Positions 24,488 to 52,027 of a stretch of 64,000 nt of DNA are shown piece by piece (position 1 is the stretch's first letter; each line of letters starts with the position of its first letter). The DNA is taken from the NCBI RefSeq assembly GCF_009796805.1, contig NZ_CP047029.1:3486001-3550000 (forward strand), given 5' to 3'. The stretch is from Algibacter sp. L1A34 (GTDB lineage: Bacteria; Bacteroidota; Bacteroidia; Flavobacteriales; Flavobacteriaceae). The notes under the pieces are model-generated. The model ran no database searches. It was not told where the DNA came from and worked only from the letters and a program-made list of their open reading frames with translations. The translations under genes were made by a program, and so were the position numbers.

Positions 24488-25378
24488 TTACACAGCAGGT
24501 CTAATATCTACTTCAACTTTCATTTTGTTTTCACCTGAACTATAAATAACTCCTTTTAAAGGAGGAACATCATAATAATCGCGTCCGTAAGCCACAATAA
24601 TGTGTTGGTTTTTTGGTATTTGATTATTAGTTGGATCAAAATCTACCCATCCAAATTTAGGAATATACACTGAAAACCATGCGTGAGAAGCATCTGTACC
24701 AATAAGTTTCTCTTTTCCAGGAGGTGGTAAAGTTTCTATATAACCACTTACATAGCGTGCAGACAAACCTATAGATCTAACGCAGGCAATAGCGATTTGA
24801 GCAAAATCTTGACACACTCCTTTTTTATTCTCCATAACTTCCTGAATTGGTGTTGCTACATTTGTAGCGGTTGCATCAAACTCGAAATCGATATAAATGC
24901 GTTGCATGAGCTCTAAAGCCGATTCAAAAATGGGGCGTTTCGGTTTGAAAGAAACCAAAGCATAATCTTTTATATTTTTTGTTATTTTAGCAATTAAAAT
25001 CGATTCAAGTAAAAATTGTTTTACTTCTAAAATTTCTGAGGAAATAGATTTCATCTCTTTTTTAGCTTCTTCGAGAGTTATCGCCATTCCAGCAGTCGAT
25101 TTGTAAATATCTGGTGCTAGACTAGAATCTCTTAACACCTTAGTTTTTGCGACAACTTTTAATTCTTCATGGTATTGCTGAATAGAAAAGCGAGTGATAG
25201 TATTTCCGAAGAAATCGATACGTTCTGAAATTTCAGTCGGTTTTGGGCTTATTTCCAATTCATAACTTAAAATGCTTTGTCCTAAAAAATCAAGGGGTTT
25301 TAGAGTCGCTATATTATGGCAAAATGTAACACCATTGCCATATTTGTATATTGTTGTATGTGATAATTGAAAAACCAT
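24488..25378 (-). CDS. Transglutaminase-like cysteine peptidase family protein
   Basis: 296 residues. N-terminal 'bacterial transglutaminase-like N' beta domain (about 1-85, FQLSHTTIYKYGNGVTFCHNIATLKP), then a transglutaminase-like core: catalytic Cys in KKGVCQDFAQIAIACVRSIG (about 192), RYVSGYIET, His in DASHAWFSVYIP (about 229), Asp in WVDFDPTNN. The Cys-His-Asp triad is intact, so the protein may hydrolyse or form isopeptide bonds. No signal peptide, so cytoplasmic. Its start overlaps the stop of the ATP-grasp gene at 25378 by one base. Third gene of the operon that starts with the DUF2126 protein. Confidence 0.9.
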   Translation of the reverse strand: MVFQLSHTTIYKYGNGVTFCHNIATLKPLDFLGQSILSYELEISPKPTEISERIDFFGNTITRFSIQQYHEELKVVAKTKVLRDSSLAPDIYKSTAGMAITLEEAKKEMKSISSEILEVKQFLLESILIAKITKNIKDYALVSFKPKRPIFESALELMQRIYIDFEFDATATNVATPIQEVMENKKGVCQDFAQIAIACVRSIGLSARYVSGYIETLPPPGKEKLIGTDASHAWFSVYIPKFGWVDFDPTNNQIPKNQHIIVAYGRDYYDVPPLKGVIYSSGENKMKVEVDIRPAV

Positions 25379-27936
25379 TATTGTAGCGGGAAGTTTTGAT
25401 TAACCAATTGAGTTTGTTGATAGGAATGATTAAAATATGTATCTGAAATAGATAAGGATGTTTGGTGTAATAATTCGCTTAGTTCGGATAATAAATCATC
25501 TAAATTACCTCTAATAGCACCATGTTCATCTAACTCCAAAAGCTGTTCTATTTTTGAATTTGAAATTAATTGGTTTGCTTCTTTTATTAGGTTATAGCAT
25601 TTCGAATTGTCTGTAATACCTTTTGGTAATGGTAATTTTCCAATATCTTTTAAAATACGACTTAGTTGATAGGTTAGTGAACGGCTGTATTTATCGTTAA
25701 GTAAAACTAATTTAATTACATTTTCGACACTTAGATACGATCGGTAGCTATAACGGTATATATTTAAACTTTCGTGACTAGATAGCAAGGCTTCAAGCAT
25801 TTCATATTCTAAATCTTCATCGTATTTTGCAACAATTAGCGAGCGGCATTTTTCAATAGTTAAACTTGCTTGTTCGGTTTGTAAACCAATAAAATAAAGC
25901 AATAATCCTTGATCTACTAAAATGCTTTCTTCAATTAAACCCATAAAAGCTATAAGTCTCGTTGTTGTACTATCTAGTAATTTTAGTAATGAAGAAACAG
26001 AATATTCTTTAGTTTTATCATACTTATTCCATAATTTTTTTATACCATCGAATACACGCCACATGTCTTTAGACCATAGGTTTCTTAGAGTGTAATAACT
26101 ATTGTTAAAACTACCTAAAGTTTGCGCTAAAGAGCCCATTTTAAAATTATCAAGAATAAGTGAGTTGAGTTCTTTTAAAGGATTTTTTAATACCTCTTCT
26201 TTCCCTTTCCCAACAAAACCTGGTAATGTAGATGTTATATTTGTTACGGCTTCAAAAATTATTTTTAAACTCTCTGATGGATCTTTACTTTTATCAAATT
26301 GCGAACTTTGCATTTTATTTAAACACATTCGCAGTAGGCGAGAGGTAATTAATGTACGACCAAGATATCTACCAGACCAAAATAAATTTTCGGCCGTATG
26401 GCTAGGTAAATCGTTCATGTCCGAAACCTGATTTCTAAACGTGTTATCCCACGCATAATTATGGAAGTGGTTTTGAACTTTATCTGTAACAATCCAAAAA
26501 TCTTTACTAACGCCGCCTCTTTGGTTGGATACTCTTAAATCTTCGCGTTCTGATGCTACACGAACCAAACCACCAGGCATAATACTATAGCTGTCTTTTT
26601 TAGCGATAGCAAAGGTTCTACACATAATTTTTCTTGGCTCTAATTTATCTTTTATGAAATCTGGAGCGGTAGAAAATTTTATTTTATCTTGAGCTACAAA
26701 TCGATATGGATTTGCTAATATTTCTTCTTTTAATTTGTTTAGTTCGGCTTCATCTAAAAATTCACAGAAATATATGCTTTCTCTATTGGATCGATCAATA
26801 CGTTTTACAACGTACTTTTCTATATTTTTGAATACATGATCTCGTTCTTTTTCCTGTCCACACCACCAAGAGGCAATTTGTGGAAGTAATAATTCTTCCT
26901 TTAAAAAATACTTAGAAATAGCATTCATAAAAGGAATAAGTCCTGAGTTCTCTAAAACACCGCTACCTATTGGGTTTACAATACTTACGTTTTTCTGTCT
27001 AATAACATCTAGAATTCCTGCAATTCCTAAATAAGAATCTTCACGAAGTTCTAAAGGATCCATATAAGCATCGTCTACACGTCTTAAAATAACATGAACT
27101 TGCTTTAATTCCTTTAAAGATTTCATCCAAACTTTTCCATTTCTAACCACTAAATCGTTCCCTTTCACTAGAGAATACCCTAGAAAAGACGACATGTAGG
27201 CATGTTCGAAATAGGTTTCATTATGGGGGCCAGATGTTAGTATAACAATGTTTGGATTCGCAACATTTTTAGGTGCTGCATCAATGAGCATTTGGTTATA
27301 ATCTTGAAAAAAACCACTTGGTTGTTTTACATTAATTCCGCTAAATAAATTAGGAGCCGCCTTATTAAGAGCAAACCTATTTTCTAAGGCATAACCTAAG
27401 CCAGAAGGTGCTTCTGTACGGTCGTTCACGACCCACATACGTCCGTCTGGACCACGTGCTAAATCGGTAGCATGAATTAATAAATTTTTAGAAGTATTGT
27501 ATTGTATTTGATCGCATTGACGTAAAAATCCACGATGGGCAAATAAAACTTCTTGAGGAACAATACCATTTTTTATAAGTTCACGTTTACCATAGATATC
27601 TTTTAAAATTAAATTAAGTAGCTCGGCACGTTGTATTAAACCTTTTTCAATGGTTTGCCATTCTTTATCATGAATTAAAAAGGGAATAACACTTAAATCC
27701 CAAGCGCGATGTAAGCCCTTGGGATCATTATAAACATTGTAAGTTACTCCATTCTCGTCCATTAACCAATTAATTTCCTTTTGTCTGGAAATTAATTCTT
27801 CAGGACCTGCTTTTGTTAAATTTGATAGTAAATTATCCCAATTAGGATTAATTTTATTATTAGATTTCAATACTTCATCATAATTTTTATGATCGGTAAA
27901 ATAATTCTGAAATAGTGTATTCGAATCTATGGTCAT
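25378..27936 (-). CDS. Circularly permuted ATP-grasp / alpha-E domain fusion protein
   Basis: 852 residues, fusion form of two proteins that are separate in many bacteria. Residues about 80-480 form the circularly permuted type 2 ATP-grasp (LARGPDGRMWVVNDRTEAPSG, ILTSGPHNETYFEHAY, HVILRRVDDAYMDPLELR, IVNPIGSGVLENSGLIPFM, MPGGLVRVAS), predicted to use ATP to join a carboxylate to an amine. Residues about 510-830 are the helical alpha-E domain (TAENLFWSGRYLGRTLITSRLLR at its start, partly basic). Predicted as a peptide ligase with partner proteins in the same operon; no substrate is known from sequence. Starts 12 bases after the DUF2126 gene stop and overlaps the next gene by one base. Confidence 0.92.
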   Translation of the reverse strand: MTIDSNTLFQNYFTDHKNYDEVLKSNNKINPNWDNLLSNLTKAGPEELISRQKEINWLMDENGVTYNVYNDPKGLHRAWDLSVIPFLIHDKEWQTIEKGLIQRAELLNLILKDIYGKRELIKNGIVPQEVLFAHRGFLRQCDQIQYNTSKNLLIHATDLARGPDGRMWVVNDRTEAPSGLGYALENRFALNKAAPNLFSGINVKQPSGFFQDYNQMLIDAAPKNVANPNIVILTSGPHNETYFEHAYMSSFLGYSLVKGNDLVVRNGKVWMKSLKELKQVHVILRRVDDAYMDPLELREDSYLGIAGILDVIRQKNVSIVNPIGSGVLENSGLIPFMNAISKYFLKEELLLPQIASWWCGQEKERDHVFKNIEKYVVKRIDRSNRESIYFCEFLDEAELNKLKEEILANPYRFVAQDKIKFSTAPDFIKDKLEPRKIMCRTFAIAKKDSYSIMPGGLVRVASEREDLRVSNQRGGVSKDFWIVTDKVQNHFHNYAWDNTFRNQVSDMNDLPSHTAENLFWSGRYLGRTLITSRLLRMCLNKMQSSQFDKSKDPSESLKIIFEAVTNITSTLPGFVGKGKEEVLKNPLKELNSLILDNFKMGSLAQTLGSFNNSYYTLRNLWSKDMWRVFDGIKKLWNKYDKTKEYSVSSLLKLLDSTTTRLIAFMGLIEESILVDQGLLLYFIGLQTEQASLTIEKCRSLIVAKYDEDLEYEMLEALLSSHESLNIYRYSYRSYLSVENVIKLVLLNDKYSRSLTYQLSRILKDIGKLPLPKGITDNSKCYNLIKEANQLISNSKIEQLLELDEHGAIRGNLDDLLSELSELLHQTSLSISDTYFNHSYQQTQLVNQNFPLQ

Positions 27937-27948
27937 TTAATATTTTAA

Positions 27949-30900
27949 TTACTTTTTTCTTAAATCTGTTGTGTTAGGAAACTCATAATTTATAGGTAAT
28001 TCCTTGTAATGAAACTTTTTGGAGCTACCTTTCTTTTGTACTGTTGTATTAGAAGAAGCATCATCGATTATCGTTTCTTGCACAGGATTAATTTCTCCTT
28101 GTGTATGTCCCGATTCCCAAAAACGACTAATTCGTCTAGATTCTGCTTCGTAACTGTTTACAGGGTACGTATCATAAGAACGTCCTCCAGGATGAGATAC
28201 AAAATAAGTACAACCACCAATAGAACGTTTGTTCCAAGTATCTACAATGTCGAAAACTAACGGTGTATCTACTCCAATTGTTGGGTGTAATGCGGAATAA
28301 GGATCCCATGCTTTGTAACGAATACCAGCAACAAGTTCCCCTTTTACAGCGGTAGCTTTTAAGTTTACTTTAACACCGTTGCAAGTTACAACATATCTTT
28401 CTTCTGTGAAGTTACAGACTTTAATTTGGATTCGTTCCAAAGAAGAATCGACATATCTAGCTGTTCCGCCACCTGTCATTTCTTCACCTAAAACATTCCA
28501 TGGTTCTATAGCTGCTCTAAGTTCAATATGAATATTATTAATGGTAACCATGCCATGTAAAGGAAATCTAAATTCAAAAAACGGATTAAACCATTCTTCT
28601 TTAAATCTATATCCAGCTCTGTTTAATGAAGTTACAATATCTTTAATGTCTTCCCTAACAAAATGTTCAATTAGAAATTTATCGTGCAATTCGGTTCCCC
28701 AACGTACTAAATCGTGCTCGTATGGTTTTTTCCAAAACCAAGCTACTAAGGTCCGCACTAATAAGTTTTGCATTAAACTCATTTGTGGATGTGGTGGCAT
28801 ATCGAAAGCACGAAGCTCTAAAATACCCAGACGTCCTGATGACGAATCTGGTGAATATAATTTATCGATACAAAACTCTGCACGATGTGTGTTTCCTGTT
28901 AAATCTGTTAATAAATGTCTGAACAATCTATCGGTTAACCAAAACGGAACTTCACCATCTTTCGGTATTTGACTAAAGGCTATTTCAAGTTCGTATAGGT
29001 TTTCCATACGTGCTTCGTCTATTCTTGGAGCTTGACTTGTTGCACCAATAAAAGAGCCTGAAAATAAGTAAGATAAACCCGGGTGATGTTGCCAAAACGT
29101 AAGTAAACTTCGTAATAAACTTGGTTTACGTAATAATGGACTGTCGGCAGGCGAAACACCTCCTAATGTTACGTGATTTCCCCCTCCTGTACCTGTGTGC
29201 TTACCGTCGAGCATAAACTTTTCGGTACCAAGACGAGATTTTTTAGCTTCTTCATATAATGTAAACGTATTTTTGGTAAGCTCGTCCCAGTTTTTAGCAG
29301 GATGTACATTAATTTCAATAACACCTGGATCTGGTGTTATTTTTAACGATTCTAATCGGTTGTCTTTTGGTGCTGCGTAACCTTCTAATATTACAGGAAT
29401 ATTTAATGTTCTCGCTGTAGCTTCAATAGAAGAAAGCAAATCCAAATAATATTCCGCACAATCTAGAGGTGGTAAAAATAAATAGAGTTTTTGGTCTCTA
29501 ACTTCAGCACAAAGTGCAGTTCTAATAAAATAATTGGTTGTTGGGCTCTCTATTTCTCCATTAACAAATGATGCATACCTGTTAGTTGCAACTTTTTTAT
29601 AACTCGGGAATCTACCACGTTTGGTAAATTGATCTGGTTCGAACTTTGGAAATTCTTCGTATTCTGATTTATGAATAAGTGATGATAATGGTAATCTTAA
29701 ACCAACAGGTGAATTACCCGGCGTTAAAAACAAATGGTTTCGTCTAAATTCCCAATCGCAGGTAAGCCAATTACCAAAGCTATTATTTAGCGGTAATAAG
29801 TAGCCAACTACTTTTGAGGTACCTTGCTCTAAAATTTCACCTAATTTCTTTTGAATTAATGAGCCATCTTTATCTGTTCTTGGATCAATATCTGTAGGTA
29901 AATTGCCTTCTTCCCAAAGAAAGTAAAAAGCATCTTCAAAAGCCGGCATAATAGTCTTATCTGTTATACCTAAATACTGAGTTAAAGTGTCTAAAAATAA
30001 TTTATCGGCATTTTCTGGAACAATTTTGTTGTCAGCAAATGTTGAAAGTAGTTTTTCGTTATGCCAGATAACACGGCCATCTTTTCTCCAACACATTTCG
30101 GTTCCCCAACGTGGTAATGGCTCACCTGGATACCATTTACCTTGTGCTCGATGTAAAAAACCTCCTTTTGCAAATTTGTTAAATAAACGTTTGGTAAGGT
30201 CGTCTGCTAGTTGTCTTTTGTGTGGTCCATCGGCATCTGTATTCCATTCTGGAGATTCCATATCGTCGATAGAAACAAAGGTAGGTTCTCCACCCATTGT
30301 TAAACGTACATCACCTTTTTCTAGTTCTTTTTCAACTTTAAATCCAAGTTTGTAAATGTCGTTCCATTGTTTATCTGTGTATGGCTTTGTAACTCGTGGC
30401 GATTCGAAAATACGTTTTACAGAGTTTTCAAACTCAAAAACAGTTTCACAAACATCCGTCATTCCAGAAACTGGTGCAGCACTTTCAAAAGAAGGTGTAC
30501 ACGCTAATGGAATATGCCCTTCACCAGCTAATAATCCCGATGTAGCATCGAAACCAATCCATCCAGCACCAGGTAAATAAACTTCAGCCCAAGCATGTAA
30601 ATCGGTAAAATCTTCTTCAGGTCCAGATGGTCCATCAAGCGATTTTTCATCAGACTTTAATTGTACTAAATATCCCGAAACAAACCGTGCACCAAAACCT
30701 AAATGTCTTAGAATTTGAACAAATAACCAAGCGTAATCACGGCAAGATCCATTTCTTTGCAGAAGTGATTCTTCACAAGATTGAACACCTGGGTCAAGCC
30801 TGATGTTGTAGCTTAGATATTCATATATTTTTTGATTGATATCAATTAAAAAATAGATTGTTTTTCTTGGCGTATAATCTATTGTTTTAATGAATTCGTG

Positions 30901-31281
30901 AATAAGTGGGCCATCATCTGTGATTTCTAAATAGGGTAGAAGTTCCTTTTTAATGGTGTCAGAATATGTAAAAGGATATTCTTCCGCAGATTCTTCAACA
31001 AAAAAGTCGAATGGATTTATAGTTTTTAAATCAGCAATAATTTCTACTTCAACAGATAATTCCGTTGTTTTATCAGGAAAAATTAATCTCGCTAAATAAT
31101 TTCCAAAGGCATCTTGTTGCCAGTTAAAAAACTGATTATCAGGTTTTATTTTTATTGAATAAGCCTCAATTGGAGTTCTACTGTGTGGAGCAGGACGTAA
31201 TCTAAAAATATGTGGTGATAGATTTACAGCTCTATCATATTTATACTTTGTTTTGTGTGAGATTACAATTTTTAACGCCAT
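27949..31281 (-). CDS. Transglutaminase family protein with DUF2126
   Basis: 1110 residues, usual size. N-terminal transglutaminase-like N domain (1 to about 85), transglutaminase core with Cys in RNGSCRDYAWLFVQILRHLGF (about 170), His in DLHAWAEVYLPGAGW and Asp in FDATSG: an intact triad. The remainder (about 300-1100) is DUF2126, with VRLTMGGEPTFVSIDD, GKHTGTGGGNHVTLGG, HPGLSYLFSGSFIGATSQAPR and HPGGRSYDTYPVNSYEAESRR. Proteins of this kind were proposed on comparative grounds to belong to an ATP-grasp-based peptide ligation and modification system. It is the first gene of the three-gene minus-strand operon; ATG at 31281, preceded by 229 bases without a gene and no clear promoter. No signal peptide. 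Confidence 0.93.
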   Translation of the reverse strand: MALKIVISHKTKYKYDRAVNLSPHIFRLRPAPHSRTPIEAYSIKIKPDNQFFNWQQDAFGNYLARLIFPDKTTELSVEVEIIADLKTINPFDFFVEESAEEYPFTYSDTIKKELLPYLEITDDGPLIHEFIKTIDYTPRKTIYFLIDINQKIYEYLSYNIRLDPGVQSCEESLLQRNGSCRDYAWLFVQILRHLGFGARFVSGYLVQLKSDEKSLDGPSGPEEDFTDLHAWAEVYLPGAGWIGFDATSGLLAGEGHIPLACTPSFESAAPVSGMTDVCETVFEFENSVKRIFESPRVTKPYTDKQWNDIYKLGFKVEKELEKGDVRLTMGGEPTFVSIDDMESPEWNTDADGPHKRQLADDLTKRLFNKFAKGGFLHRAQGKWYPGEPLPRWGTEMCWRKDGRVIWHNEKLLSTFADNKIVPENADKLFLDTLTQYLGITDKTIMPAFEDAFYFLWEEGNLPTDIDPRTDKDGSLIQKKLGEILEQGTSKVVGYLLPLNNSFGNWLTCDWEFRRNHLFLTPGNSPVGLRLPLSSLIHKSEYEEFPKFEPDQFTKRGRFPSYKKVATNRYASFVNGEIESPTTNYFIRTALCAEVRDQKLYLFLPPLDCAEYYLDLLSSIEATARTLNIPVILEGYAAPKDNRLESLKITPDPGVIEINVHPAKNWDELTKNTFTLYEEAKKSRLGTEKFMLDGKHTGTGGGNHVTLGGVSPADSPLLRKPSLLRSLLTFWQHHPGLSYLFSGSFIGATSQAPRIDEARMENLYELEIAFSQIPKDGEVPFWLTDRLFRHLLTDLTGNTHRAEFCIDKLYSPDSSSGRLGILELRAFDMPPHPQMSLMQNLLVRTLVAWFWKKPYEHDLVRWGTELHDKFLIEHFVREDIKDIVTSLNRAGYRFKEEWFNPFFEFRFPLHGMVTINNIHIELRAAIEPWNVLGEEMTGGGTARYVDSSLERIQIKVCNFTEERYVVTCNGVKVNLKATAVKGELVAGIRYKAWDPYSALHPTIGVDTPLVFDIVDTWNKRSIGGCTYFVSHPGGRSYDTYPVNSYEAESRRISRFWESGHTQGEINPVQETIIDDASSNTTVQKKGSSKKFHYKELPINYEFPNTTDLRKK

Positions 31282-31510
31282 AAATTTTGTGGTTTTATTT
31301 TAAATGAATTTAGTAGTAAAAAAGATTCTTATAAAAATACATTAATTTTCTCAGTAAAATAGAGTTTTAAATAAAACTAAACCGATTAGTTAAATTATTA
31401 AAACATTAAAAATTATAATGACGAAAATTGATGATATGACGAATTTAGGGATTGTTTACCTTTTTTTTGATAAACACTAAAAATCATAAATTATACAGAA
31501 AATTTATTTT

Positions 31511-32551
31511 TTACGAATTGTAAAATCTGTTTTCTTGTTCATTAACTCTAATAAATGTAGTCCGTTTTGTGAGTTCTTTTAATCTAGATGCCCCAACATA
31601 GGTGCACGTACTGCGTAACCCTCCTAAAATATCTTGTAAGGTGCTTTCTACAGGTCCTTTATATGGTATTTCTACTGTTTTTCCTTCACTAGCCCTGTAT
31701 TCGGCAACGCCACCAACATGTTTTTCCATAGCCGTAGAGGAACTCATACCATAGAATTTCTTGAATTGCTCACCATTTTTTTTAATAATTTCACCACCAC
31801 TTTCATCATGTCCAGCAAGCATGCCTCCAAGCATTACAAAATCTGCACCAGCTCCAAAAGCCTTAGCTATATCTCCGGGAGTTGTACAACCACCATCGCT
31901 AATAATTTGTCCTCCTAAACCATGGGCAGCATCGGCACATTCAATAATTGCTGATAATTGAGGATAGCCAACACCGGTTTTTATTCGTGTAGTGCATACC
32001 GATCCAGGACCAATACCAACTTTTACAATATCGGCACCAGAGAGAATAAGTTCTTCTACCATCTCGCCTGTAACCACATTTCCTGCAATAATAACTTTAT
32101 CAGGGTATTGTTTTCGGGTGCTTTTCACGAAATCTGCGAAATATTCAGAATAACCGTTTGCAACATCAATACAAATAAATTTTAATTCTGGTTTTAGTTT
32201 AAATATTTCGGCTAGTTTTTCGGAATCATGCTCACCAATACCAGTACTAACAGCAATATGATTTAAATCGTTTTTAGAAATAGAAGATAAAAATCTCGTC
32301 CATTCCGATAATGAATAATGCTTATGTATTGCAGAAAAAAGTCCTTTACTAGCAAGGGCTTTAGCCATTTCAAAAGTACCAACAGTATCCATGTTTGCGG
32401 CCATTATTGGAATGCCTTTCCAAACTGTCGAACTATGTAAAAATTTAAATTCTCGGTCTAGACTTACTTCCGATCTGCTTTTTAGAGTGGATCTTTTTGG
32501 GCGAAACATAACATCCTTAAATCCTAATTTTATTTCGTTTTCTATGCGCAT
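31511..32551 (-). CDS. guaC: GMP reductase
   Basis: 346 residues, matching GuaC of the Escherichia type. TIM-barrel markers: [21 protein letters not shown] at the N-terminus, catalytic loop [22 protein letters not shown] (Cys near 187), [38 protein letters not shown] and [15 protein letters not shown]. It deaminates GMP reductively to IMP with NADPH, and lacks the CBS domains of IMP dehydrogenase. ATG at 32551. Divergent from the histidine kinase at 32690. guaA is also in this window at 61453. Confidence 0.95.
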
Positions 32552-49111: not shown

Positions 49112-52027
49112 ATGCGTCATATAAAATTTACGGTAGTTTGTCTGTTTTCGGTACTTTCTATTTATAGTCAAACCTCTAAAAACCCCTTAGAAATAGCAAA
49201 CCCAGAAGCACAGCACAAATGGGTTGATAGTGTTTATTCATCTTTATCTTTATCAGAAAAAATAGGGCAGTTGTACATGGTTCAAGTCATGTCTAGCCAA
49301 AGTGCTGCAACAAAAGTTAAGGTAGAAAACTTAGTAAAGAACAATCATATTGGTGGAGTTATTTATTCTAATGGCGGACCGTATAGGCAAGCTAAGCTTA
49401 ATAATCAATTACAAGCTTTATCAAAAATCCCACTTTTAGTAGGTATGGATGCCGAATGGGGATTAAGTATGCGTTTAGATTCTACTTATGCATTTCCTTG
49501 GAATATGACGCTTGGAGCCATAAAAGATGATAAATTGGTTGAAGAAGCTGGTCGACATATTGGAGAACATTGCAAACGTTTAGGTGTCCATTTTAATTTT
49601 GCGCCTGTAGTTGATATTAATACAAATCCTAAAAACCCAATTATAGGGAATCGTTCTTTTGGGGAAGATCGTGATAATGTAACTCGTAAAGCTTCTGCTT
49701 TTATGAAAGGGATGCAAAGTGCTGGCGTGTTGGCCAATGCAAAACATTTTCCTGGTCATGGAGATACCGATCAAGATTCGCATTTAACGTTACCAACTAT
49801 CAGTTTTGATGAAAAACGTATTGATTCTATTGAATTGTATCCGTATAAAAAGCTAATAACAGAAGGGCTTTCAAGCGTTATGGTTGCGCATTTAAACGTT
49901 CCTGGCTTAGATAATTCTGGTGTGCCATCTTCTTTATCAAAACACATTGTAACCGATATTTTAAAAAATAGATTAGGTTTTCAAGGGCTTATTTTTACAG
50001 ATGCATTAACGATGAAGGGTGCCGCAGATTTTGATGAAACCGGCGATATTGATTTGGCTGCTTTTAAAGCAGGGAATGATGTGATGTTAATGTCTGAAAA
50101 TGTAGGCATTGGTGTTTCTAAAATTAAAGAAGCTTATAATAGAGGTGAAATTACAGAAGCGCGATTAGAACTTTCGGTTAAAAAGATTTTAATGGCTAAG
50201 TACAAAGTTGGTTTACAGAATTATAAACCAATTAGTTTAAAAAACCTTGCTAAAGATTTAAATAGACCTGAAGATGATATTTTATATGAAGAACTTCTTG
50301 AAAACGCGATTACCGTTGTAAAAAACGAAAATAACTTAGTGCCAATTACACATTTGGAAATTAAAACATTGGCTTATGTAAATATGGGTGACGATTCTGG
50401 CAATGTATTCTTTAATGAGCTGAAAAAGTATGGAAAAGTGCATGCTGTTAAAGGAAATACTTTAGAAGAATTAATGGGGCAATTGGAACCCTATAATACT
50501 GTAATTATTGGTTTACATCGTTCCAACGCAAATCCTTGGAAAAGTTATAAATTTACTGAAGAAGAGATTGGTTGGTTACATGAAATTTCACGAACGCATA
50601 GTGTTATTCTCGATGTATTTGTTAAACCTTATGCGCTTGCCGATTTAAGAACAATGGCGAATATTGAGACCATAATAGTGAGTTACCAAAACAGTGCTAT
50701 CGCTCAGCAAAAATCTGCTCAGCTTATTTTTGGAGCCATTCCGGCAAAAGGGATATTACCAGTTTCTATAGGTCAGTTTTATAATGCTGGTGAAGGCATA
50801 GATAGTGATGCCATAAAACGATTAGGATACACAGTTCCTGAACGTGTAGGTATGAATTCTAAAAAATTAAATAGAATAGACTCTATTGCAAACTATGCTG
50901 TAAGTCATAAAATGACACCGGGAATTCAACTTTTAGTGGCTAGAAAAGGTAAAGTGATTTATAATAAGAATTTTGGAAAACACACATATGCTGGAAAAGA
51001 AAAAGTGGGTTTCGATGATATCTATGATGTTGCTTCATTAACAAAAATATTAGCAACTTTGCCTTTGTTAATGGAATTGGAAGAACAGAATATTGTTTCG
51101 CTCGATACTAAATTGGTTGAAATTTTATCAGAATACAAAGGCTCGAATAAAGAAAATATTACATTAAAACAGATGCTATCTCATTATGCGCAGTTACGCC
51201 CTTGGGAACCCTTTTATTATCATACTTTAGATACGGTTACTAAACGGCCAAGTGCAAAATATTACAGAAAAGTTAGGAGTCCGAAGTTTAATGTTGAAGT
51301 GGCTAAGAATTTGTTTTTAAGATCTGATTATCAAGATTCTATTCCGAAGATAATTAAAGATTCCGAATTGCTAGATCGTTTAAGATATCGCTATAGTGAC
51401 TTTCCTTATTATATTTTAAAGAAATTTATTGAAGAGTATTACGACAGAACTCTAGAACAATTAGTGCAAGGACATTTTTATGAGTCTTTAGGAGCAAATA
51501 ACACCATGTATAATCCGTATCATAAAATAAGTAGTAAAAAAATTGTGCCTACTGAAGAAGATAATTATTACCGTTTTCAAAGAGTACAAGGTTATGTACA
51601 TGATATGGGAGCAGCTATGCAAGATGGTATTGGTGGCCACGCAGGTGTTTTTAGTAATGCGAACGATGTTGCAAAAATTATGCAAATGTATTTGCAAAAA
51701 GGGTTTTATGGCGGAAAACGCTATTTAAAACCGGAAACTGTAGATAAGTTTAATACACGTTATTTTGAAGCTCAAAATAATAGAAGAGGAATTGGTTTTG
51801 ATAAACCTCAATTGGGAGAAGCGGGTCCAACATGTGGGTGTTTATCCATGAAAAGTTTTGGGCATTCTGGCTTTACAGGAACCTATGCATGGGCAGATCC
51901 TGATGAAGAAATAGTGTACATTTTTATGGCAAATAGAACGTACCCTAATGCAGGTAAAAATTTGCTGTTAAAAGCAAATATTAGAACAGAAATACAGCGC
52001 TTAATTTATGAAGCGATTGAAGATTAA
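49112..52027 (+). CDS. Glycoside hydrolase family 3 (NagZ-like) fused to a serine hydrolase (beta-lactamase-type)
   Basis: 971 residues, exported (VVCLFSVLSIYSQ). GH3 domain (about 30-370): GNRSFGEDRDNVTRKASAFMKG, KHFPGHGDTDQDSHLTLPT with the NagZ-specific His and Asp, and nucleophile LIFTDALTMKG. A GH3 C-terminal-like sandwich follows (about 375-570). The last part (about 590-970) is a class C / DD-peptidase-like serine hydrolase: DVASLTKILATLP (SxxK), YSDFPYYIL (YxN-like), FGHSGFTGTY (KTG-like HSG). NagZ cleaves GlcNAc-anhydroMurNAc; the second domain may act on D-Ala linked stems. Two cell-wall activities are thus fused. It is 26 bases upstream of bshA. Confidence 0.93.
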   Translation: MRHIKFTVVCLFSVLSIYSQTSKNPLEIANPEAQHKWVDSVYSSLSLSEKIGQLYMVQVMSSQSAATKVKVENLVKNNHIGGVIYSNGGPYRQAKLNNQLQALSKIPLLVGMDAEWGLSMRLDSTYAFPWNMTLGAIKDDKLVEEAGRHIGEHCKRLGVHFNFAPVVDINTNPKNPIIGNRSFGEDRDNVTRKASAFMKGMQSAGVLANAKHFPGHGDTDQDSHLTLPTISFDEKRIDSIELYPYKKLITEGLSSVMVAHLNVPGLDNSGVPSSLSKHIVTDILKNRLGFQGLIFTDALTMKGAADFDETGDIDLAAFKAGNDVMLMSENVGIGVSKIKEAYNRGEITEARLELSVKKILMAKYKVGLQNYKPISLKNLAKDLNRPEDDILYEELLENAITVVKNENNLVPITHLEIKTLAYVNMGDDSGNVFFNELKKYGKVHAVKGNTLEELMGQLEPYNTVIIGLHRSNANPWKSYKFTEEEIGWLHEISRTHSVILDVFVKPYALADLRTMANIETIIVSYQNSAIAQQKSAQLIFGAIPAKGILPVSIGQFYNAGEGIDSDAIKRLGYTVPERVGMNSKKLNRIDSIANYAVSHKMTPGIQLLVARKGKVIYNKNFGKHTYAGKEKVGFDDIYDVASLTKILATLPLLMELEEQNIVSLDTKLVEILSEYKGSNKENITLKQMLSHYAQLRPWEPFYYHTLDTVTKRPSAKYYRKVRSPKFNVEVAKNLFLRSDYQDSIPKIIKDSELLDRLRYRYSDFPYYILKKFIEEYYDRTLEQLVQGHFYESLGANNTMYNPYHKISSKKIVPTEEDNYYRFQRVQGYVHDMGAAMQDGIGGHAGVFSNANDVAKIMQMYLQKGFYGGKRYLKPETVDKFNTRYFEAQNNRRGIGFDKPQLGEAGPTCGCLSMKSFGHSGFTGTYAWADPDEEIVYIFMANRTYPNAGKNLLLKANIRTEIQRLIYEAIED

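Follow-up and report, generated by a model that had tools for sequence, protein, structure and literature searches.

An operon of two predicted amide ligases and two transglutaminase-like cysteine enzymes in Algibacter sp. L1A34 and its possible link to nitrogen economy

Introduction

Amidoligase-transglutaminase systems, reportedly set out by Iyer et al. in 2009, comprise a circularly permuted ATP-grasp protein, an alpha-E domain with an ER motif and transglutaminase-like proteins with a Cys-His-Asp triad, all encoded by linked genes. Here we describe a three-gene operon of Algibacter sp. L1A34 that fits these systems, with its ER motif altered. It lies in a stretch of 64,000 nucleotides (NZ_CP047029.1, positions 3,486,001 to 3,550,000), called the window below, and consists of two predicted ligases and two predicted cysteine enzymes. 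Genes of this kind were proposed in 2008-2009, and the operon joins them. We found no paper that treats this locus, and the open-licence literature yielded no established substrate for these families since that proposal. We tentatively suggest that the operon takes part in a nitrogen-responsive synthetase/amidase cycle, in which an amide would store nitrogen or set it free.

Glutathionylspermidine synthetase/amidase pairs an ATP-grasp enzyme with a cysteine amidase of the CHAP family. Together with trypanothione synthetase it shares the glutathione-synthetase-like ATP-grasp with gene 2 of the operon, but these enzymes use another amidase family, are single polypeptides and have known substrates. 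ATP-grasp partners also accompany the membrane-fused inactive transglutaminase systems. According to the accessible part of their description, transglutaminase-like proteins are linked to amidoligases there, as here, but the inactive transglutaminase is fused to seven membrane helices, whereas the operon proteins have no membrane segments and intact triads (PMC12096838). The DUF2126 proteins of the Rv2566 type have the same architecture of transglutaminase-like domain and predicted ligase as gene 1, and they share with it the lack of a Pup-like open reading frame (ORF) nearby (Iyer, Burroughs and Aravind 2008, PMC2588565).

The Anbu operon of Yersinia bercovieri and Pseudomonas putida (PP_2685-2688) shares the ATP-grasp type 2, alpha-E and transglutaminase families with the window. 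However, it encodes ATP-grasp and alpha-E separately and contains Anbu, a proteasome-like subunit, whereas the window encodes DUF2126 and a fused ATP-grasp-alpha-E protein without detectable Anbu. Since no Anbu was detected, we do not count the operon of the window among the Anbu operons. The ATP-grasp protein of the Y. bercovieri Anbu operon has been reported to release phosphate from ATP.

Results and discussion

The operon was confirmed in the window with the following features.

27949..31281, minus strand: gene 1 (1110 amino acids), an N-terminal transglutaminase-like region fused to DUF2126 (Pfam)
30544..31263, minus strand: transglutaminase-like region of gene 1, residues 7-246 (Pfam), with the triad C180, H229 and D245
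27958..30456, minus strand: DUF2126 (Pfam PF09899), a predicted carboxylate-amine ligase, residues 276-1108
27958..27984, minus strand: tail that ends gene 1 behind a variable linker and is conserved at the C-terminus, residues 1100-1108 (EFPNTTDLR)
25378..27936, minus strand: gene 2 (852 amino acids), a circularly permuted ATP-grasp fused to alpha-E (Pfam)
26554..27684, minus strand: circularly permuted ATP-grasp domain, residues 85-461 (Pfam), with a glutathione-synthetase-like fold of the model
25432..26409, minus strand: alpha-E domain, residues 510-835 (Pfam), with GR in place of the ER motif at 26356-26361
24488..25378, minus strand: gene 3 (296 amino acids), a transglutaminase-like cysteine enzyme (Pfam), with the triad C189, H232 and D248
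31282..31510, minus strand: intergenic stretch upstream of the operon, alignable across five congeneric genomes

As a preliminary description of this DNA had stated, the three genes are tightly linked, with a 12-base gap between genes 1 and 2 and a one-base overlap between genes 2 and 3, and its domain calls agree with Pfam. Gene 1 matched Bact_transglu_N, Transglut_core and DUF2126 (1256 bits, 'Putative amidoligase enzyme'), gene 2 CP_ATPgrasp_2 (PF14403, 479 bits) and Alpha-E (PF04168, 176 bits), and gene 3 Bact_transglu_N and Transglut_core. The view of gene 1 as a cysteine enzyme holds for its transglutaminase region, but most of the protein (residues 276-1108) is a predicted second ligase that had been overlooked. 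Hydropathy, used without a signal-peptide predictor, likewise revealed no signal peptide, as claimed before, and no membrane segment in the operon proteins (highest 19-residue Kyte-Doolittle mean 1.45). Scans with the PADLOC defence-system and NCBIfam libraries gave no match, and the base composition of the operon resembles that of the remaining window.

For comparison we used the best 80 of at least 591 DUF2126 loci, a selection that thus leans to close relatives. The DUF2126 alignment holds 68 rows (the window, 61 of the 80 named loci and six others), the gene 3 alignment 42 rows (the window and 41 named loci), and the alignment of fused alpha-E domains 45 rows (the window and 44 named loci, from the 51 fused ORFs at those loci). 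Both cysteine-enzyme triads, described earlier as intact, are invariant, that of gene 1 in 68/68 and that of gene 3 in 42/42 rows. Triad motifs were found in the DUF2126 proteins of all 80 named loci, and 49 of the 57 transglutaminase ORFs at these loci fit the motifs, the remaining eight showing Cys, His and Asp by eye. The DUF2126 part carries dozens of charged and aromatic residues that are invariant in all 68 rows. In contrast to the triads, the ER motif of the operon, after which alpha-E is named, is not intact, since its Glu is replaced by Gly at residue 526. Of the 45 fused rows 37 retain this Glu. Gly takes its place in the window and in five further rows from flavobacteria, Ser in another flavobacterial row and Asn in a metagenome-assembled genome (MAG). 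Among split alpha-E proteins 42/44 fit the ER pattern and the other two, with cut or extended ends, show ER by eye; the split copy in the genome of the window also keeps it.

The operon was found in 5/5 congeneric genomes searched, and its best named relative, from Algibacter lectus, is 95% identical. The ratio of nonsynonymous to synonymous substitution rates (dN/dS) was 0.03-0.09 in 12 comparisons, with dS of 0.8-1.7 being close to saturation. Since the low ratios and the presence in all congeners are joined by the same gene order in other phyla, the operon is more than chance. In the window and six close genomes the flanks are conserved within the genus, whereas in two close genomes outside the genus essentially the operon alone is conserved, plus an ATP-grasp/alpha-E pair in one of them.

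The operon is not the whole set, since a second trio lies far away in the genome. This trio encodes an ATP-grasp protein (483 amino acids), an alpha-E protein (306 amino acids) and a third transglutaminase (322 amino acids), without Anbu, at about 202254-205635 of the contig (locus L016, 8255-11636; alpha-E at 203 kb). This is 3.3 Mb from the operon along the contig, or about 1.3 Mb if the contig is circular, and it is the only locus of this genome with ATP-grasp and alpha-E as separate genes. The transglutaminase of this trio ends in a run of glutamines. Close relatives with a DUF2126 operon have two alpha-E copies each (6/6), and in three flavobacterial relatives an ATP-grasp/alpha-E pair directly adjoins the DUF2126 operon. 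Among the 61 of 80 loci with sufficient flank, a fused gene lies within 8 kb of DUF2126 in 44. In 35 loci it follows DUF2126 directly downstream on the same strand, and all 35 have gene 3 as the next gene. Split alpha-E occurs near DUF2126 in 34 of the 61 loci, both forms in 24 and neither in seven. Fused and split ATP-grasps form two deep clades (FastTree, midpoint-rooted, support values not shown), with the split copy of the same genome within the split clade; row L030 of this tree, labelled split, is a fused gene cut by the contig end. The gene set is old and widespread among bacteria, its protein families being found in many phyla. Within the phylum, a survey of 296 genomes, with Fisher tests that ignore shared ancestry, found DUF2126 to be rare (12/296). 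Alpha-E was present in 12/12 DUF2126 genomes compared to 107/284 others, and alpha-E of the fused type, in long frames of over 800 amino acids, in 9/12 compared to 1/284.

The link to nitrogen comes from promoter-like sites and from published expression data. The upstream regions were scanned with the sigma-54 -24/-12 consensus, with a five-base spacer and 10 scored bases, and 9 or 10 matching bases were counted as a site. The scanned stretch was widened to +120 since many ORF starts lie too early, and between versions of the scan the target changed, being first DUF2126, then the split ATP-grasp gene and finally the two together. Phyla were assigned from record titles, and one MAG was placed in Bacteroidota. 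Outside Bacteroidota, sites precede 11/31 split ATP-grasp and 13/63 DUF2126 genes compared to 16/358 other genes of the loci; they precede none of 33 alpha-E, 42 fused and 11 Anbu genes and 4/48 transglutaminase genes. Counted by locus (DUF2126 or split ATP-grasp), 22/63 have a site, compared to a mean of 6.3 in the control, whose 2000 draws reached at most 13/62. These 22 loci represent 18 distinct site strings, and some of them are close Pseudomonas. In the loci of Burkholderia cenocepacia and Acidithiobacillus caldus the ATP-grasp gene is closely preceded by a site, which in A. caldus has the exact consensus and lies about 54 bases upstream. In an Enterobacter locus the closest site with one mismatch is found about 350 bases upstream of that gene. 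Plain site searches over the whole B. cenocepacia, A. caldus and Enterobacter loci and the window gave no significant excess over chance.

These sites are in line with published NtrC control. In the accessible part of a study of B. cenocepacia, I35_5080-5083, annotated as DUF404/407, DUF403, transglutaminase-like and large transglutaminase-like, belong to an NtrC-dependent cluster, with table values of -8.2, -9.4, -9.4 and -6.0 in the ntrC mutant (PMC5491218). Another strain of this species has the gene order ATP-grasp, alpha-E, transglutaminase, DUF2126, fused ATP-grasp-alpha-E and transglutaminase, from which I35_5083 probably is the DUF2126 gene. The cluster encodes the same kinds of products as the genome of the window, but it is contiguous and under sigma-54/NtrC control, whereas the genome of the window has two loci and no such site before the operon. 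In P. putida, PP2685-2687 were reported to be up under nitrogen limitation (PMC3325844), and PP_2685 and PP_2688 to be up on nitrate compared to ammonium (PMC8050072). A conserved context with a known pathway, named earlier as a finding that would refute the first interpretation, thus exists in part: Anbu-type operons and nitrogen-limitation regulons are known, but they do not supply the reaction.

In the cycle that we propose, the operon would be the DUF2126 half of a cytoplasmic synthetase/amidase system. The ATP-grasp domain and the GS/GCS-like DUF2126 domain, two unrelated predicted ligases, would spend ATP to join carboxylates to amines, and the transglutaminase-type cysteine enzymes would cut or transfer amides. 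Each ligase has a cysteine enzyme as its partner, for DUF2126 within a single chain and for the ATP-grasp through neighbouring genes, so that the system would work like glutathionylspermidine synthetase/amidase. This is the make-and-cut logic for amides that had been put forward on comparative grounds, and our analysis supports it. The substrate would most likely be a metabolite or peptide common to many hosts, and the purpose could be nitrogen economy because many relatives outside Bacteroidota have sigma-54 promoter-like sites before these genes. The gene content, the conserved catalytic residues, the co-occurrence, the sites in relatives and the ATP-grasp fold of the model were observed, as was the lack of detectable Anbu and of a conserved small ORF. 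What we infer is that DUF2126 is a ligase, which way the chemistry runs, what class of substrate is used and that nitrogen plays a role in this bacterium. Nitrogen starvation would be the condition of interest outside Bacteroidota, and the operon of this marine bacterium, lacking detectable Anbu, offers a simpler system.

Several observations weigh against the proposed nitrogen-responsive cycle. Sigma-54 serves other regulons too. Outside Bacteroidota, 41/63 loci have no site of 9 or more matches, and NtrC-like palindromes are only modestly enriched (7/31 compared to 15/358). In Bacteroidota, no site was found upstream of eight split ATP-grasp and 15 DUF2126 genes (compared to 1/8 alpha-E and 1/96 other genes), and the upstream region of the operon has none within two mismatches. 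The nitrogen role assumed here thus derives from other phyla. The ligase fold of DUF2126 is weakly matched as well: in the Foldseek search with the gene 1 model the best listed glutamine synthetase (5dm3) stood last, at rank 50, among the 50 listed out of 451 matches (E 0.14, probability 0.85), hhalign with shallow profiles gave no match of DUF2126 to 13 GCS2 proteins, and a Pfam scan of nine DUF2126 parts with E up to 10 found no ligase family other than DUF2126 itself. A mycobacterial protein that we take to be a homologue of gene 3 adds a further difficulty, since it reportedly resides at the cell wall and has been called a serine protease. A published study of the Y. bercovieri Anbu protein reported that no complex with its operon partners was observed, and the authors of PMC5666114 considered a role of Anbu in peptide synthesis less likely.

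Genes of this kind also occur on plasmids. DUF2126 matched in 26 of 72,556 plasmid records, and the phage records searched gave no match. On an IncFII plasmid of Enterobacter roggenkampii (NZ_CP116251.1, 15034-24225), ATP-grasp, alpha-E, DUF2126, fused ATP-grasp-alpha-E and transglutaminase genes stand together in a region that also holds an arsenate reductase gene and insertion sequence elements. The ORFs in the 27 kb read there included no Anbu, five ORFs downstream of the set have no match in the other loci, and a megablast with the DNA of the set hit 0 of 5,426 E. coli genomes and no other plasmid record. Hence these five genes can travel together, and the mobility of the set suggests that its substrate is already present in the host. 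The A. caldus plasmid (NZ_CP005987.1, 4563-16435) carries two Anbu ORFs, ATP-grasp and alpha-E, and its DUF2126 gene is divided into two ORFs, a transglutaminase part and a ligase part, with about 1.4 kb between them. Its neighbours are ntrC-glnL, an APC permease and an amidase.

A different function, which we regard as unlikely, would be protein tagging. Here the ligases would link a peptide or amino acids to proteins of the host through isopeptide bonds. The cysteine enzymes, together with Anbu where present, would take the tag off again or degrade the protein. Tagging has been proposed for the Anbu operon in the literature, including the accessible part of PMC5666114, and Anbu is the biggest cluster of extra DUF2126 neighbours (11/80 loci). 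However, a screen of 1120 ORFs of 25-150 amino acids, within 3 kb of the 80 loci and not overlapping larger genes, found no family in at least three loci, with the exception of four close Pseudomonas. The Pseudomonas ORF encodes a lysine-rich protein of about 60 amino acids beside gene 3 (L087, 14874-15056; same place in L086, L088 and L090). The preliminary description had seen no substrate gene adjacent to the operon, which thus extends to the 80 loci, and had suggested a search of close genomes for a co-occurring small protein gene. In the window and six close genomes, the small ORFs shared within 4 kb of the operon comprise one gene that reads as RidA-like and others that overlap or abut the operon; the window has one further short ORF at a distance of about 7.5 kb. 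It is therefore unlikely that the system has a small protein of its own as substrate, which weakens the isopeptide version of the earlier tag idea, although its make-and-cut logic for amides stands. A tag within a larger protein or encoded elsewhere would escape such a screen.

The distribution of Anbu also speaks against tagging. Anbu proteins were identified by an N-terminus resembling the peptide of Pa-Anbu, as given in the accessible part of PMC5666114, and in two cases by a match to PF00227. The scores of these two, L059:4381-5136 and L031:16471-17226, were 22.8 and 18.0 bits (E 7.8e-5 and 2.3e-3) at a cut-off of 22.4. Anbu can escape annotation because such scores straddle the cut-off; PF00227 was dropped as an insensitive test and an Anbu alignment used instead. 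Neither PF00227 nor the alignment found Anbu in the genome of the window, and the alignment was also negative in eight relatives (four congeners and four others of the same family) and positive in one genome of the same family. In the phylum it matched 21/296 genomes, all 21 with alpha-E, and Anbu was present in 6/12 DUF2126 genomes compared to 15/284 others, which leaves six DUF2126 genomes without it. Since the genome of the window has no detectable Anbu, the operon does not need it, and Anbu is a dispensable, optional extra peptidase.

Alternatively, the genes could serve the biosynthesis of a peptide that is used for storage, as an osmolyte or for signalling. The cysteine enzymes would then trim this product, and nitrogen would not be recycled. 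The two ligases could make two different bonds in sequence, and the ATP-grasp fold matches makers of small peptides and pseudo-peptides such as Cp1B, as far as their partly accessible descriptions go. Yet the 15 neighbour clusters found in at least four loci, judged by reading and not by a scan, include no obvious tailoring enzyme, carrier or exporter across lineages, and the presence of two or three cysteine enzymes in each system suggests that breakdown takes place besides synthesis. We therefore consider a purely biosynthetic role improbable.

Less credible still is that DUF2126 is a substrate-binding or structural partner of the transglutaminase region rather than a ligase, in a cysteine-peptidase scavenging system with the ATP-grasp as the single kind of ligase. 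This would agree with the weak fold matches of DUF2126 mentioned above. The AlphaFold2 model of gene 1 has a mean predicted local distance difference test (pLDDT) score of 81.7 over the whole protein; transglutaminase-like structures lead its Foldseek matches, and a PDB sequence profile search likewise matched transglutaminase-like chains. Two lincosamide-resistance chains in that search (E about 0.35) were taken as chance. In the Pfam scan of the nine DUF2126 parts, PF23560 matched below the cut-off. On the other hand, the invariant charged and aromatic residues of DUF2126 are enzyme-like, and experts have placed the domain in the carboxylate-amine ligase superfamily (accessible part of PMC2588565). 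A GS/GCS-like ligase is thus a weakly supported prediction for DUF2126. For gene 2, the model (mean pLDDT 86.5) is predicted to have a glutathione-synthetase-like fold in its ATP-grasp part: it matches 3n6x, an ATP-grasp structure from structural genomics (E 1.7e-32), and also glutathione synthetases of the eukaryotic type (E about 1e-10 to 1e-9 for the best ones), Cp1B and glutathionylspermidine synthetase. Judged by titles, the 50 matches listed of 278 include no obvious relative of alpha-E.

In 79/80 DUF2126 proteins a linker of 27-69 residues leads to a tail of the form [TLIV]xD[LMIV]R, the one exception running off its contig, and in the gene 1 model the last 20 residues have pLDDT of 84-87 after a linker below 50. 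LysW is a carrier loaded by an ATP-grasp ligase. By analogy, the tail, E[YF]PxTxDxR, might be a built-in carrier or acceptor arm, with the ligases loading an amine on an acidic residue and the cysteine domains releasing it, but we hold this to be very unlikely; if true, the 'substrate gene' would be fused to the enzyme, in a nitrogen-starvation system movable between species as a five-gene cassette. We did not find the tail, the sigma-54 pattern across lineages, the Enterobacter cassette or the loss of the ER Glu in the open-licence literature, which is no proof of novelty.

Upstream of the operon, the stretch before gene 1 contains an inverted repeat, GTTTA-N12-TAAAC, at 31454-31475, which is a possible operator; a similar TTTATC...TAAAC stretch is present in most of the five congeneric upstream regions. 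The next gene on the same strand (31511-32551, 346 amino acids) belongs to the IMPDH/GMP reductase family. Its position is kept in the window and three of the four congeners but not in the two relatives outside the genus. Elsewhere in the window, a protein of 971 amino acids (49112-52027) appears, judged by reading, to begin with a region like glycoside hydrolase 3 and to continue with a beta-lactamase-like one.

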